Part shown: piece by piece, positions 825-5,463 of the stretch | Layout: each line of letters opens with the position of its first letter | How positions within the stretch are numbered: position 1 is the first letter of the stretch | Origin: Halorubrum persicum | GTDB taxonomy: Archaea > Halobacteriota > Halobacteria > Halobacteriales > Haloferacaceae | Length of the DNA stretch: 32,715 nucleotides | Direction of reading: 5' to 3' | NCBI RefSeq assembly: GCF_002727125.1 | Contig: NZ_NHOA01000145.1 | Coordinates: forward strand, 1-32,715 | Position numbers and translations under genes: made by a program | Notes under the pieces: model-generated | What the model saw: only the letters and a program-made list of their open reading frames with translations | Told to the model about the DNA's origin: nothing | The model's database searches: none

Positions 825-1733
825 CTACGACGAGAAGTCGGAGAGCGACCCGCGCGAGTCGTCGGCGTCGTTCTGATCACTCTCGTCGGCATCGTCTCGG
901 TCCGCCTCGTCGGTGTCGTTTCGATCACTTCCGTCGGCGTCGTTTTTGTCCGCCTCGTCGCCGATCTGCTCGGGCTCGTGCCACGGGTCGTCCGGGTCGA
1001 CGGGCTCGACCGCGCGGTCGAGCTCGGCCGCGTCGTAGTCGCGCTCGTCGTCGAGGAGCATCGCGAGGCGCTGCCAGCGGGCGCTGTGCTCGCCCTCGCC
1101 CTCCGGGCCGACCCGCGCGCCGCGGGTCTTGAAGAAGCGCGTGCCGCGCCCCAGCTTCGACCCCTCGCCGGTGTGGCCGTCGAAGATCGCGTCGAACTCG
1201 CCGCCGGGTTCGAGGTCGCCGACGGGGAAGTCGTGGGCGGGCTCCTCGCCGCGCTCGCGGGCCTCCGCGCCGACATCGGCGACGGCTCGGAAGTACTCGT
1301 CGGCGTTGGGCCCCTCGCGGGTCGACTGCGCACGGGCCGCCGCCAGCGCGGCGTGGATCGCGCAGAGCCGTCCCTTCCACTCGGCGGGCTCCCAGCGCTC
1401 GGTGGCGAGCTCCTCGTAGCGCTCGATCGTGAGCGCCACGTCGCTGCCCGCGCGGAGGTCCTCGACGACGTAGAGGTTCAGGCGGTCCCAGAGGTTCCAC
1501 GCGTAGCCGGAGCGGGCCAGCTCCCACGCGGCCCACGCGGCGACCTCCTCGTCGGAGCGGCGCACCGCCTTCTGGAGGAGGCTGGAGACGACGTACCGGC
1601 TGTAGCCGCCGTCGGTCTCGTTGGCCGCCTTCTCCTCGCCGAAGTCGTTCTCGCCGGTCGCGTCCGGCGTCGTGTCGGTCTCCAAGCTCCCGTCCGACCC
1701 GAACGTCGCCTGTCTGTCGTCGCCGTCGGCCAT
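825..1733 (-). CDS. Orphan MgsA/RarA C-terminal-domain-like protein with acidic repeat tail
   Basis: 302 residues from ATG 1733. Residues ~1-42 are an acidic, low-complexity leader. About 43-220 form a helical domain beginning YSRYVVSSLLQKAVRRSDEE and containing HDFPVGDL and GHTGEGSKLGRGTRFFKTRG. This resembles the C-terminal helical/tetramerisation domain of RarA/MgsA-type AAA+ ATPases and the stand-alone proteins built from it. No Walker A or B motif is present, so it is not an ATPase by itself. It may be a partner or regulator in replication-fork maintenance (inference). The tail holds four 8-residue repeats of type D-x-N/D-D-x-D-x-x (residues 262-293). The gene is monocistronic, between the truncated oxidoreductase and tRNA-Tyr. 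Confidence 0.7.
   Translation of the reverse strand: MADGDDRQATFGSDGSLETDTTPDATGENDFGEEKAANETDGGYSRYVVSSLLQKAVRRSDEEVAAWAAWELARSGYAWNLWDRLNLYVVEDLRAGSDVALTIERYEELATERWEPAEWKGRLCAIHAALAAARAQSTREGPNADEYFRAVADVGAEARERGEEPAHDFPVGDLEPGGEFDAIFDGHTGEGSKLGRGTRFFKTRGARVGPEGEGEHSARWQRLAMLLDDERDYDAAELDRAVEPVDPDDPWHEPEQIGDEADKNDADGSDRNDTDEADRDDADESDQNDADDSRGSLSDFSS
855..950 (-). repeat. Four imperfect 24-base tandem repeats inside the MgsA_C-like gene
   Basis: Four consecutive 24-base units encode DKNDADGS, DRNDTDEA, DRDDADES and DQNDADDS (residues 262-293). They form a highly acidic, probably disordered tail. Copy number is likely to vary between strains because the unit is in frame and repetitive. Confidence 0.7.
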
Positions 1734-1873: not shown

Positions 1874-1947
1874 CCGCCCTTAGCTCAGCTTGGTAGAGCA
1901 GTCGACTGTAGATCGACTTGTCCCCCGTTCAATTCGGGGAGGGCGGA
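1874..1947 (+). tRNA. tRNA-Tyr (GTA anticodon)
   Basis: The sequence folds into a full cloverleaf. The acceptor stem is CCGCCCT (1874-1880) pairing with AGGGCGG (1940-1946), with discriminator A1947. The D-arm stem is GCTC/GAGC. The anticodon stem is GTCGA/TCGAC around loop CTGTAGA, giving anticodon GTA (tyrosine). The T-arm is CCCCG-TTCAATT-CGGGG. The first pair is C1-G72, the archaeal and eukaryotic tyrosine identity pair. No intron is visible and CCA is not encoded. tRNA 3' ends are common integration sites, and palindromes and repeats follow directly downstream. Confidence 0.97.
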
Positions 1948-1951
1948 CTGA

Positions 1952-2119: not shown

Positions 2120-2260
2120 ATGAGTGCCGAGCGCGACAGCGACGAGGAGATCGCGATCGCTGTCGACGTGGAAGGCGACTCGGTCGAGATCGAGCGCGAG
2201 CGGACCGATTGCTCTGCAAACCCGGCAACATGTTCTCCAATTTCTTACATACCTATTTAA
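2120..2260 (+). CDS. Small acidic ORF, hypothetical
   Basis: 46 residues starting MSAERDSDEEIAIAVDVEGD. It is preceded by a strong Shine-Dalgarno-like GGAGGT at 2109-2114, five bases before the ATG; this is unusual here because most genes in the window look leaderless. The first ~30 residues are acidic and typical of haloarchaea. The end (CSANPATCSPISYIPI) is unlike that and coincides with a drop in GC, so this may be the start of a gene whose 3' part has been lost. The stop codon at 2258-2260 lies inside the TATA box of the next gene. No family recognised. Confidence 0.4.
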   Translation: MSAERDSDEEIAIAVDVEGDSVEIERERTDCSANPATCSPISYIPI

Positions 2261-2263
2261 TAT
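2252..2263 (+). promoter_or_regulatory. TATA box of the 2286-5463 operon
   Basis: CCTATTTAATAT in a locally AT-rich stretch (about 2210-2285), centred ~28 bases before ATG 2286. This is the expected spacing for a leaderless archaeal transcript, and it is the clearest promoter for the operon. Confidence 0.65.
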
Positions 2264-2285: not shown

Positions 2286-2813
2286 ATGTCTGTAGGACAG
2301 GAGCTACTCGACGTACCGTTCCCTGAGATGATCGCGAGTATGGGTCAGGGTATCGCGGACGCACAGAACCAGTTGGACATGAACTCGGTCGAGGTGGCGA
2401 AAATCCTCGCCGAGACGGAGATCGAGGTCGTGCCGGCGATCACGCGCACGATCGACTCGCAGGGCGAGGTCACCTACTCCTCCGCGACACCGATCGACGT
2501 CTCGCTGCTGCAGGCCGGGCTGTTCCCGACCTTCTACCAGTTCTCGGAGGCGATCATCGAGGTCGAGATGGACATCAAGACGACGAGCGAGCGCGAGACG
2601 AACATCGACGTCAGCGCCGAGGCGCACGCGGGGTTCGGCCTGTGGGGCGGGAGCATCCAGACCGACGTGAGCCACAACCGGAAGTTCGGCAAGGAGGTCC
2701 ACGGGACGAGCAAGCTGAAGACCACGTTGGTTCCGGTCCCGGAGCCGCCGTACCTCTTCCCGGAGGTCGAGACCGTCGACCAGCGACAGACCGACGACGA
2801 GGAGACGGAGTGA
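2286..2813 (+). CDS. DUF2589-like protein, first paralog
   Basis: 175 residues, first gene of the 2286-5463 operon, leaderless start. Residues ~11-42 form an amphipathic helix containing GQGIADAQNQLD. Next come LAETEIEVVP and TRTID, then IDVSLLQ and YQFSEAIIEVEMDI (84-97), a glycine/serine-rich middle (GFGLWGGS) and a final strand LKTTLVPVPEPP. This N-terminal helix followed by paired beta strands recalls DUF2589 proteins, whose function is unknown. The next gene is clearly a paralog and the one after a distant one. There is no signal peptide, membrane segment or catalytic motif, so a cytoplasmic structural or binding role is more likely than an enzyme (inference). DUF assignment is from memory. 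Confidence 0.6.
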   Translation: MSVGQELLDVPFPEMIASMGQGIADAQNQLDMNSVEVAKILAETEIEVVPAITRTIDSQGEVTYSSATPIDVSLLQAGLFPTFYQFSEAIIEVEMDIKTTSERETNIDVSAEAHAGFGLWGGSIQTDVSHNRKFGKEVHGTSKLKTTLVPVPEPPYLFPEVETVDQRQTDDEETE

Positions 2814-2833
2814 TCGGACCCGCCGCGCTCCGC

Positions 2834-2875
2834 GCGTGCGTCTTCGCACGCATCCGCACGGCGGACGGAGTGCGG
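2834..2875 (+). other. Tandem hairpins between the first two operon genes
   Basis: A perfect 7-bp hairpin GCGTGCG-TCTT-CGCACGC (2834-2851) is followed by CCGCAC ... GTGCGG (2854-2859 with 2870-2875). Both lie in the 73-base gap between the stop at 2813 and ATG 2887. No T-run follows, so a terminator is not obvious. They may tune expression of the downstream genes or mark an RNA processing site. Confidence 0.5.
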
Positions 2876-2886
2876 CACCCAGACCC

Positions 2887-3483
2887 ATGCCATTACGAGC
2901 ACATCACCTACCACCGCGCAGTATCGCCCCCGCTCGGTCGGGCCGACGGGAGGTGGCCGACCTCCCGTTCGACGACCTCGTCTACCTGCTCGCGGAGGGC
3001 GTCGCCGACGCCCAGACCGCGCTCGACGCCCACGCCGCGGAGACGCTCACGACGCTCGCAGAGACGGAGGTCGACGTCGCGCCGACGCTGACTCGCACCG
3101 TCGCGCCGGACGGAACGGTCACGCCGGACGGAACGGTCACGACGGACACCGCGACGGCGGAGCGGCGATCCCTGCTCGACGTCGGACTGACGCCTGCCCG
3201 GTACCAGTTCAGCGACGCGACGATCGAAGTCGAGGTCGACGTTCGCACCACCGAACGCAGTCAGTCGGACCGAGCCGAACCGGAATCCGAGCATGCCGCG
3301 GGGGGATTCGGTCTCAGAGCGGGCACGCAGTCCGTGATCGATCGCCGGACCGTCGACCGCGAGGCCGGCGCGAACGCCCGCCTCACGGCGCGGCTCGAAC
3401 CCACCCCGATGCCGGCGGCGACCGGATCCGCGGAGACGGGGTCAGCGACCGACGGGGCCGACGGAGGCGAACGTGCCGACTGA
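2887..3483 (+). CDS. DUF2589-like protein, second paralog
   Basis: 198 residues from ATG 2887. It aligns by eye with the previous gene: GVADAQTALD matches GIADAQNQLD, LAETEVDVAPTLTRTV matches LAETEIEVVPAITRTI, and YQFSDATIEVEVDVRTT matches YQFSEAIIEVEMDIKTT. GGFGL and a terminal ARLEPTPMP are also shared. An 18-base unit is perfectly duplicated at 3104-3121/3122-3139, giving PDGTVTPDGTVT in the loop between strands. The last ~15 residues are disordered. The start is uncertain: the ~22 residues before VADLPFDDL look basic and non-homologous, so a GTG near 2953 is possible. It overlaps the next gene by 11 bases, so the two are probably translationally coupled. Confidence 0.6.
   Translation: MPLRAHHLPPRSIAPARSGRREVADLPFDDLVYLLAEGVADAQTALDAHAAETLTTLAETEVDVAPTLTRTVAPDGTVTPDGTVTTDTATAERRSLLDVGLTPARYQFSDATIEVEVDVRTTERSQSDRAEPESEHAAGGFGLRAGTQSVIDRRTVDREAGANARLTARLEPTPMPAATGSAETGSATDGADGGERAD
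3104..3139 (+). repeat. Perfect 18-base tandem duplication within second paralog
   Basis: The unit CGCCGGACGGAACGGTCA occurs twice in direct succession (3104-3121, 3122-3139) and keeps the frame. It adds six residues (PDGTVT) to a predicted loop. A recent slippage event is likely because the copies are identical. Confidence 0.7.
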
Positions 3484-3865
3484 CGAGTGGCTTGCGCGAC
3501 CGCTCAAGGAGTTCATCCGGACGGTCGCGTTCTCGGTCGCCGAGGGGCAAGAGGAGCTCGACCGCCGGTCGATGGCCGTCCAGCGGTCGATCGAACGCGA
3601 CATCGAAGACGGGAGCCTCGCGTACGACCTCGACGCGTCGTGGCTCAGGTTCGCCGACGTGGAAGCCGACCTGGAGATGACGCTGTCGATCGAGGGGCAG
3701 GAGGTCCGCGATCCGGAGACCAACGAGGTCCGCGCGTACAAGCCGACCGTGACCGCCGTTCCGCTGAACCACCGCGTCAGCGACGAGTACGACGTGGACG
3801 CCGAGATCGCCAGCGAGGTGCGGCTCCGCATCGCCCCCGTCCCGCCGGAGTCCCGTAACCCATGA
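3473..3865 (+). CDS. Distant DUF2589-like paralog, third gene of the operon
   Basis: 130 residues from GTG 3473, which overlaps the previous stop by 11 bases. It keeps the helix pattern (RTVAFSVAEGQEELDRRSM versus ASMGQGIADAQNQLDMNS), the strand WLRFADVEADLEMTLSIEG in the place of the YQFS strand, and a terminal VRLRIAPVPPES like VPVPEPP. It is therefore a shortened, diverged member of the same family lacking the glycine-rich middle. Its stop overlaps the next start (ATGA at 3862-3865). No enzyme motif or export signal. Function unknown; conserved pairing with its paralogs would suggest a hetero-oligomer. Confidence 0.55.
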   Translation: MPTDEWLARPLKEFIRTVAFSVAEGQEELDRRSMAVQRSIERDIEDGSLAYDLDASWLRFADVEADLEMTLSIEGQEVRDPETNEVRAYKPTVTAVPLNHRVSDEYDVDAEIASEVRLRIAPVPPESRNP

Positions 3866-5164
3866 GCGATCGCGACCGCTCCGCGTTCAACGCCGACACG
3901 GCGCGATTCGCGGAGACGTTCCAGCTCGAAGAGCTACCGCAGGTCGACGCCGCCAAGTTCGAGACGGTCGAGCGGGCGGCGGTCGAGCGACTGGTCACGG
4001 ACCAACAGGAGTCGCTCGTTCGCCTGCAGACCGACGTGTTAGCGGTTCAAAGCGAGCGGACCGCCCTGGAGCGCCGGCTCTCGAAGGTCGAGGCACAGCG
4101 GGAGGCACTCCGAGAACGCGTCGGTGAACTGGAGGCGCAGCGCCCGGCGGTGGAAGCCGAAGCAGGTCTTCTCGAACCTCGGCGCGGCGCTCCAAGAGGT
4201 GGACGACGACCTGCAGAGCGAGCGCTACCGCGTCGACGACGTGGACTTCACGCTCAAGACGAACGTGATCCAGACCGACGAGGGGATCCGGATGCACCTG
4301 CCGTCGCTGGACGAGTCGTCGGCGTCGGCGAATCTCAGCGAGGTCTCCTTCCGACTGCGTGCGCCGCGAGGGGAGCCCGAGGACGCCGCGACGACGTACG
4401 GCGACGTGCCGGACCTCGGGGGGCTGTCGCACGAGACCGCGGCGCGCCGGCTCGCCGCGGCCAATCTGTCCGTCGGCGTGGTCGAGCGCGTCGTCGAGCC
4501 GGCGACCGCACCGGGCACCGTCGTCGAGCAGTTCCCCGACCCCTACGCGGTCGCCGAGCCCGGAGCGCCGGTCGATCTCGTGCTCTCCGCGGCGTCGAGC
4601 GAGGAGGCAGGAACATCGGACGGGGAGACAGGCGCATCGGGCGAACCGGATTCATCCGGTGAATCGGAGTCACCGAGCGACCCCGACTCTCCGAACGAGT
4701 CCGACGCGGCGCCGACCCCGGACCCGGACGACGACACCGCCCCCGCGGAGTCGCCCGAGCCGGAAGACGAGCGGGCCCGCATGGAGGCGTTCAGACGGGC
4801 GATCATCGACGTCGCCCCGGAGAACGGCGCCGCGGTGGTCGAGCGACTCCGCCGCGCGGGCGTGACCGACCTCGAATCGCTGGTCTCGCTCGATCCGGAG
4901 GCGATCGCGGCGGAGCTGTCGCTACCGGTCGAGCAGATCGCCGCGCTCCAAAAGCGGCTCGGCGCCCGCGGCGAGCCGGTCGCGCTCGAAGAGGTGTCCG
5001 GGATCGGGCCGACGTACGCGGACCGACTCCGCGAGAAGGGCGTCAGAAACGTCGCCCAGCTGGCCGCACTCGACCCGGAGGTCGTCGCCGACATCACCCG
5101 TGCGTCGACGAGCCGGACCGAGGGGTGGATCGAGGAAGCGACCCGGATGGCGGGTGACCCATGA
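3862..5164 (+). pseudogene. Coiled-coil / PASTA / tandem helix-hairpin-helix protein, interrupted by a +1 frameshift
   Basis: Frame 1 runs from ATG 3862 through a long coiled coil (VQSERTALERRLSKVEAQRE) to about base 4161. The family-like sequence then continues one base over (QVFSNLGAALQEVDDDLQ) and ends at 5164. Read together, with one base of GAAGCAGG at 4159-4166 skipped, it is ~433 residues. Residues ~1-150 are coiled coil; ~105-175 are strands like those of the three upstream proteins. A PASTA domain spans ~182-243 (VPDLGGLSHETAARRL ... VVEQFPDP ... VDLVLS). An acidic Ser/Asp/Pro linker follows, then two helix-hairpin-helix-type segments, the second with EEVSGIGPTYADRLREKGV. There is no signal peptide. 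The stop overlaps the next start (ATGA at 5161). This could be a true pseudogene, a sequencing error or programmed +1 shifting. Confidence 0.6.
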
Positions 5165-5463
5165 GCGTCGCGGAGCGGTTCGGTGCGTCCATCGAGGTCG
5201 CCGGACCGGACCCCGAGTCGGAGGGGTTCTTCTTCGTGAAGCGGCGGGACGGGGTCGCCCACGAGGCGTTCGTTACCGGACTGCTCGGGCTGGTCGGCAC
5301 GGCGGGCCGGCTCGTGCTCCACCATCAGTCGGGGTTCGCCATCGTTCGCCTCCCGCACGGCCGCGCCCGGCGACTCGGTCGGCTCCCGTGGATCGACACT
5401 GTCGGCGGCATCCGGTTCGATCCGGAGCAGTTCGCGGCGGTCACGGGCGTCCCGATGGGGTGA
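5161..5463 (+). CDS. Small protein resembling an I9-type (subtilase propeptide-like) domain
   Basis: 100 residues, ATGA overlap with the previous gene, last gene of the operon. The order GFFFVKRRDGVAHEAFV, then SGFAIVRLP, RRLGRLPWIDTVGGIRFDPE follows the beta-alpha-beta layout of I9 inhibitor/propeptide domains (strand, helix, 'GFA' strand, helix, 'V..V..D'). That is a pattern judgement, not a measured match. In this family such domains act as chaperones or inhibitors of subtilisin-like proteases, but no protease gene is nearby. No signal peptide. It may instead be a small adaptor for the operon's other products. Function is not known. Confidence 0.5.
   Translation: MSVAERFGASIEVAGPDPESEGFFFVKRRDGVAHEAFVTGLLGLVGTAGRLVLHHQSGFAIVRLPHGRARRLGRLPWIDTVGGIRFDPEQFAAVTGVPMG

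Follow-up and report, generated by a model that had tools for sequence, protein, structure and literature searches.

A five-gene set with relatives of DUF2589 and Trypco2 in Halorubrum persicum recurs in bacteria and archaea

The stretch analysed here (the window) comprises 32,715 nucleotides of Halorubrum persicum, read on the forward strand of contig NZ_NHOA01000145.1, and its haloarchaeal DNA carries a set of five genes, all on the plus strand. Bacteria and archaea alike keep these gene types together, three of the five belong by profile comparison to one superfamily, and a tentatively favoured reading is that the set builds a self-assembling structure in the cytoplasm. Within the window the set and its parts are placed thus:

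2245..2263, plus strand: promoter elements, TTACATAC at 2245-2252 and TATA-like TTTAATAT at 2256-2263
2286..2813, plus strand: gene 1, 175 amino acids, DUF2589-like, the most conserved of the set and likely main subunit
2319..2414, plus strand: gene 1 residues 12-43, predicted amphipathic helix (AlphaFold2 model; helical moment p 0.004)
2532..2738, plus strand: gene 1 residues 83-151, predicted strands 83-98 and 137-151 flanking the conserved segment 99-136
2822..2876, plus strand: RNA hairpin in the gap between genes 1 and 2, -42.3 kcal/mol, z -3.53
2887..3483, plus strand: gene 2, 198 amino acids from this ATG, paralog of gene 1
3473..3865, plus strand: gene 3, 130 amino acids, GTG start, diverged paralog; the bacterial counterpart is Trypco2-like
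3862..5164, plus strand: gene 4, with coiled coil, helix-strand module, PASTA domain, linker and helix-hairpin-helix domain; frame change near 4155 in the assembly
3976..4155, plus strand: coiled-coil part of gene 4, matched weakly, under the cut-off, by DUF7310 and other coiled-coil models
4160..4381, plus strand: helix-strand module of gene 4, common to bacterial gene 4 (94.6% with its C-terminal module)
4406..4588, plus strand: PASTA domain of gene 4 (PF03793, 38.6 bits, cut-off 23.2)
4985..5140, plus strand: helix-hairpin-helix domain of gene 4 (PF14520, HHH_5, 43.6 bits, cut-off 27)
5161..5463, plus strand: gene 5, 100 amino acids, propeptide/I9-like fold (predicted)

An earlier, sequence-only reading of this DNA had described five same-strand genes behind a single clear promoter, with overlaps at the last three junctions, and this layout was confirmed at the coordinates above: genes 2 and 3 overlap by 11 bases, the next two junctions are both ATGA, and genes 1 and 2 are separated by a 73-base gap. 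The promoter holds up as well, as the TTTAATAT and TTACATAC pair is kept at equal spacing in five of the six other Halorubrum loci (L031-L035), the sixth (L036) having retained TTACATAC and not TTTAATAT. Because TTTAATAT lies about 26 bases upstream of the gene 1 ATG and its spacing to TTACATAC is kept in these relatives, the position of the promoter would be compatible with one leaderless transcript. The hairpin between genes 1 and 2 is very stable (none of 200 shuffles was equally good) and is found in a minority of relatives: the gap is shorter than 45 bases in 32 of 49 other loci, and among the 17 with a gap of at least 45 bases eight fold at z <= -2.4. It may serve as a stoichiometry control and could raise the output of gene 1.

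The recurrence of the same set in distant genomes, which had been fixed beforehand as the test of the sequence-only reading, was found in bacteria as well as archaea. A search with the gene 1 protein gave 946 of 1000 candidates at an E value of 1e-3 or better, and the 120 matches listed were 59-92% identical to gene 1, named bacteria included; the nearest gene 1 in named records is that of Halorubrum kocurii (96%). In a single pattern scan of species genomes 53 loci were obtained, with gene 1 in 52 of them, gene 2 in 52, gene 5 in 48 and gene 4 in 45 (32 in a bacterial and 13 in an archaeal form), while the bacterial gene 3 profile was matched in 35, archaeal gene 3 being caught by the gene 2 profile. 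Five loci lack gene 5: three end at a contig edge (L031, L080, L082), L081 gives a weak match (2e-3) and L067 gives none despite room on both sides. Genes 3 and 4 went unrecognised in L075 and L077-L079, L075 having a weak gene 4 match (3e-3). Gene order differs between bacteria and haloarchaea: most bacterial loci read 5-1-2-3-4, L040 and L041 read 1-5-2-3-4, L032-L039 and L045 read 1-2-3-4-5, and Salinigranum and Halobaculum have 3-4-5-1-2. The sole plasmid case found is that of Sphaerotilus sulfidivorans, whose 303-kb plasmid carries the set as five adjacent genes annotated "hypothetical protein". That copy (L140:8643-11422) sits between a run of transporter and oxidoreductase genes and ilvD.

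It could be supposed that a loose run of unrelated genes is kept together by chance, and the genes indeed have no common known function, but such an explanation is next to impossible, as it is refuted by the recurrence in distant genomes (the 53 loci and the Sphaerotilus sulfidivorans set) and genes 1-3 are homologous to each other.

By their titles the rows of the gene 1 tree come from 13 bacterial phyla and a single archaeal phylum; some joins across phyla are well supported, long branches are flagged, and the main archaeal clade does not include Salinigranum or Halobaculum. Since metagenome bins make up many of the bacterial rows, errors of binning may contribute to the cross-phylum spread. 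Near home the distribution is patchy, with a gene 1 match in 18 of 292 genomes of the class and in 11 of 52 genomes of the genus Halorubrum. Viral or phage relatives of the set were searched for and none was found. Among 121 flanking proteins no Pfam family occurs in more than four and no PADLOC family in more than two, and no peptidase stands among the flank families listed (the 25 most frequent of 104 for Pfam, with 25 of 35 for PADLOC).

Kinship of falling degree between genes 1, 2 and 3 had been claimed from the letters of the sequence, and it was confirmed: genes 1 and 2 are 41% identical, and in profile comparison genes 1 and 2 score 100%, genes 2 and 3 96.6% and genes 1 and 3 94.1%, while the gene 5 profile scores 0.2% with each of gene 1, gene 3 and the bacterial module of gene 4. 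These comparisons show genes 1-3 to form one superfamily. As for their proposed likeness to DUF2589 (PF11655), it stands for gene 1 by profile comparison, where gene 1 profiles reach 93.1-95.6% over 138-140 columns (reversed controls 0.5-1.4%), gene 2 reaches 42.3% and gene 3 5.2%, but not by the Pfam model, which matches none of genes 1-3 of the window at E values up to 1 and only four of 93 gene 1/2 relatives at E up to 0.5 (best 2.7e-4). The Trypco2 profile (PF19631) is approached most closely by gene 3 at 70.9% (reversed 0.2%), the bacterial gene 4 module at 47.6% (reversed 3.5%), gene 1 at 31.7% (reversed 0.2%) and gene 2 at 1.0% (reversed 0.8%). Its Pfam model is likewise without a match in genes 1-3 of the window (E up to 1); at E up to 0.5 it matches five of 33 gene 3 proteins (best 8.9e-6) and 24 of 93 gene 1/2 proteins (best 7.6e-4). 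One gene 3, that of L060, exceeds the Trypco2 cut-off (27.6 vs 24.2), which gene 4 of L067 fails to reach with 21.0. Since a direct comparison of Trypco2 with DUF2589 gave no match (1.0%), the link between the two families runs only via genes 1-3. Judged by their profiles, genes 1-3 are here called superfamily relatives of DUF2589 and Trypco2 and not members, because neither Pfam model matches the genes of the window. With DUF2589 the set shares an alignment of gene 1 over about 138 columns, and it differs in gene 5, for which no match below E 0.7 was obtained in the 12 regions searched; with Trypco2 it shares the succession of a helix and then strands, seen in gene 3 and in the gene 4 module; no trypsin-like partner was seen among the 25 most frequent of 104 flank families.

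Gene 1 is by far the most constant member: mean pairwise identities in 29 complete bacterial sets are 71.1, 53.5, 33.2, 28.6 and 30.3% for genes 1 to 5 (the gene 4 figure computed on the C-terminal 110 residues), and gene 1 of the window is 57-64% identical to its counterpart in 34 of 41 bacterial loci and 37-54% in the other seven. Pfam yields no match for gene 1 of the window. The single-chain AlphaFold2 model is moderate, with a mean predicted local distance difference test score (pLDDT) of 69 and residues 101-136 below 50. Of the 38 columns of the segment 99-136, 16 reach at least 90% conservation over 74 rows, and the alternation typical of an amphipathic strand is seen at residues 104-130 (beta moment p <0.001). 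Unplaced in the single-chain model yet conserved and amphipathic, this segment may fold on another subunit, or in a membrane. The second option leads to the idea of pore-forming proteins, in which the segment 99-136 of gene 1 and of its paralogs would be a membrane-inserted beta hairpin and the other genes would control it. Besides the alternation and the lack of a place in the model, a glycine-rich, hydrophobic insert seen by eye in the same hairpin region of the gene-1/2-type protein of four-gene relatives (L141, L142, L143) speaks for it; however, a soluble sheet that a neighbouring subunit completes would show the pattern too, pore formers of solved structure gave no match and no killing context was seen, which makes pores quite improbable. 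Hydropathy gives no membrane helix or export signal (top 19-residue mean 1.44), in agreement with the earlier claim that no product has an export signal, and the claimed absence of enzyme motifs agrees with Pfam, where no enzyme family exceeds the cut-off in genes 1-3 and 5.

Gene 5 has no Pfam match. It had been called I9-like, which stands for its predicted fold, of the I9/subtilisin propeptide type, but not for its sequence: the peptidase inhibitor I9 family (PF05922) is matched by none of 29 gene 5 proteins (E up to 0.5), and among solved structures the subtilisin E propeptide comes second at a non-significant E of 0.88. The set also differs from I9/subtilisin propeptides in having no protease gene.

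The propeptide-like fold and the relatives of Trypco2 lead together to a second alternative, a defence-like conflict module. Trypco1/2 are described as adapter domains in excerpts of PMC10907252, and were named, as worded in excerpts of PMC7159879, for their co-occurrence with trypsin-like peptidases in VMAP ternary systems. Genes 1-3 would accordingly be adaptors of this sort, and gene 5 would keep one of the cell's proteases in check until infection or damage sets it free. Such a role would suit the kinship of gene 3 with Trypco2, including the L060 protein above the Pfam cut-off, the predicted fold of gene 5, shared with protease propeptides and inhibitors, and the patchy distribution. It is nevertheless unlikely: no PADLOC match was obtained for genes 1, 2, 3 and 5 at E up to 0.1, the PADLOC families of the flanks recur in at most two of 121 proteins, and the 25 flank families met most often include no peptidase. 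Gene 1 is also very conserved, while rapid evolution is the tendency of conflict proteins.

In the window gene 4 is not a single open frame, the frame changing near 4155; in relatives it is one frame and intact copies exist. The two pieces, each in its own frame, correspond to adjoining stretches of an uninterrupted protein in relatives, and the change is either a sequencing error or a real break. The claimed PASTA and helix-hairpin-helix parts both exceed their Pfam cut-offs. The supposed repetition of the coiled coil and strand theme of genes 1-3 survives weakly for gene 3, to whose profile the gene 4 module scores 32% in its archaeal and 7% in its bacterial form, but not for genes 1 and 2 (0.1-0.4%). 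The C-terminal piece also matches PADLOC PD-T4-6 across its PASTA stretch (E 3e-4), and more than one PASTA-like repeat is apparent by eye in gene 4 of L141. From this protein a scaffold of the envelope or of division could be drawn, tethered by PASTA and coiled coil. The gene 4 proteins of the window and L034 both have PASTA above its cut-off, and weak coiled-coil matches extend to SMC-like families; against this, L043, the one bacterial gene 4 scanned with Pfam, has no PASTA match, and hydropathy reveals no export signal. PASTA ligands are expected in bacteria. Such a scaffold is very improbable.

The reading favoured here, still with reserve, is that the set builds a self-assembling cytoplasmic protein structure with the gene 1 product as its probable main subunit, because one near-invariant small protein is accompanied by diverging paralogs and helpers. 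The gene 1 product would polymerise via its helix and long amphipathic strands, with the segment 99-136 folding only upon meeting a neighbouring subunit, and the strong hairpin after gene 1 in the window would favour an excess of this product. Genes 2 and 3 would provide minor subunits at defined places, for example ends or caps. The gene 4 product would join the structure via its helix-strand module and reach out via its coiled coil, in archaea also via the PASTA and helix-hairpin-helix parts, and gene 5 would guard or guide the assembly by keeping hold of a strand, in the manner of a propeptide and its protease. The products of genes 1-3 may make up, as the sequence-only reading proposed, a hetero-oligomer or scaffold with gene 4 as a linker or adaptor. 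Gas vesicle gene sets also combine a near-invariant small structural protein with diverged paralogs and with coiled-coil and small alpha-beta accessory proteins; the likeness is one of possible working only, and the set differs in having no ATPase and no match of its five genes to a gas vesicle family in Pfam (E up to 1, GvpA-type included). It is rather unlikely, though worth stating, that a new class of cytoplasmic structure common to archaea and bacteria is at hand, in which gene 1 proteins would exchange amphipathic beta hairpins to make a polymer, a shell or a ring, with paralogs as caps, gene 4 as a tether and a chaperone of propeptide fold, and in which DUF2589 and Trypco2 proteins would be subunits of this type.

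Simpler relatives exist. In five haloarchaeal genomes of the home family there is just one gene of the gene-1/2 type, with genes 3 and 4 after it, and gene 5 comes next in the three loci of this four-gene form that were extended. In some other archaea (L119-L122) a tandem of two DUF2589 genes precedes a third gene for a short protein, which matches the gene 4 profile in L119 (4e-5) and L122 (9e-4) but not in L120 (0.27) or L121 (0.68), and L123-L125 have a single DUF2589 gene. The simpler DUF2589 operons and the four-gene form are counted for the structural reading because they follow the same logic. One contig of Parerythrobacter lutipelagi carries, at a distance of about 9 kb from the set, a true DUF2589 tandem pair as well (L089:6687-8148, and L053). 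Some Halorubrum genomes hold a separate DUF2589 pair and then a third short gene, as at L090:6404-8536; by eye, the strand motif of this third gene is like that of genes 3 and 4. At L130:93-1977 of a Chlorobium genome, which has the set as well, a separate Trypco2 gene comes after a gene presumably of the formylglycine-generating/sulfatase-modifying kind, an arrangement reminiscent of described ternary systems. The DUF2589-related genes AF0414-AF0417 of Archaeoglobus fulgidus are up-regulated on lactate, according to excerpts of PMC3949148.

No published description of the set was found in a literature scope that leaves aside most subscription journals and all bioRxiv preprints. As a conserved protein of 175 residues with no Pfam match in the window and with nearly constant partners, gene 1 points to a conserved machine not described in the searched literature, and the set brings DUF2589 and Trypco2, two families without an assigned function, within reach of one structure determination.

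Two neighbours lie upstream of the set, and outside it:

825-1733, minus strand: frame of 302 amino acids with a C-terminal run of repeated Asp-rich units
1874..1948, plus strand: tRNA-Tyr (ARAGORN)

The position of the set next to tRNA-Tyr had been taken as that of an accessory island. This stands within Halorubrum, where the distribution is patchy and tRNA-Tyr is found 0.3-2.5 kb upstream of the set in the window and in four of the six other loci, but not beyond the genus, where three of 20 scanned loci have a tRNA gene and none of the 20 has tRNA-Tyr.

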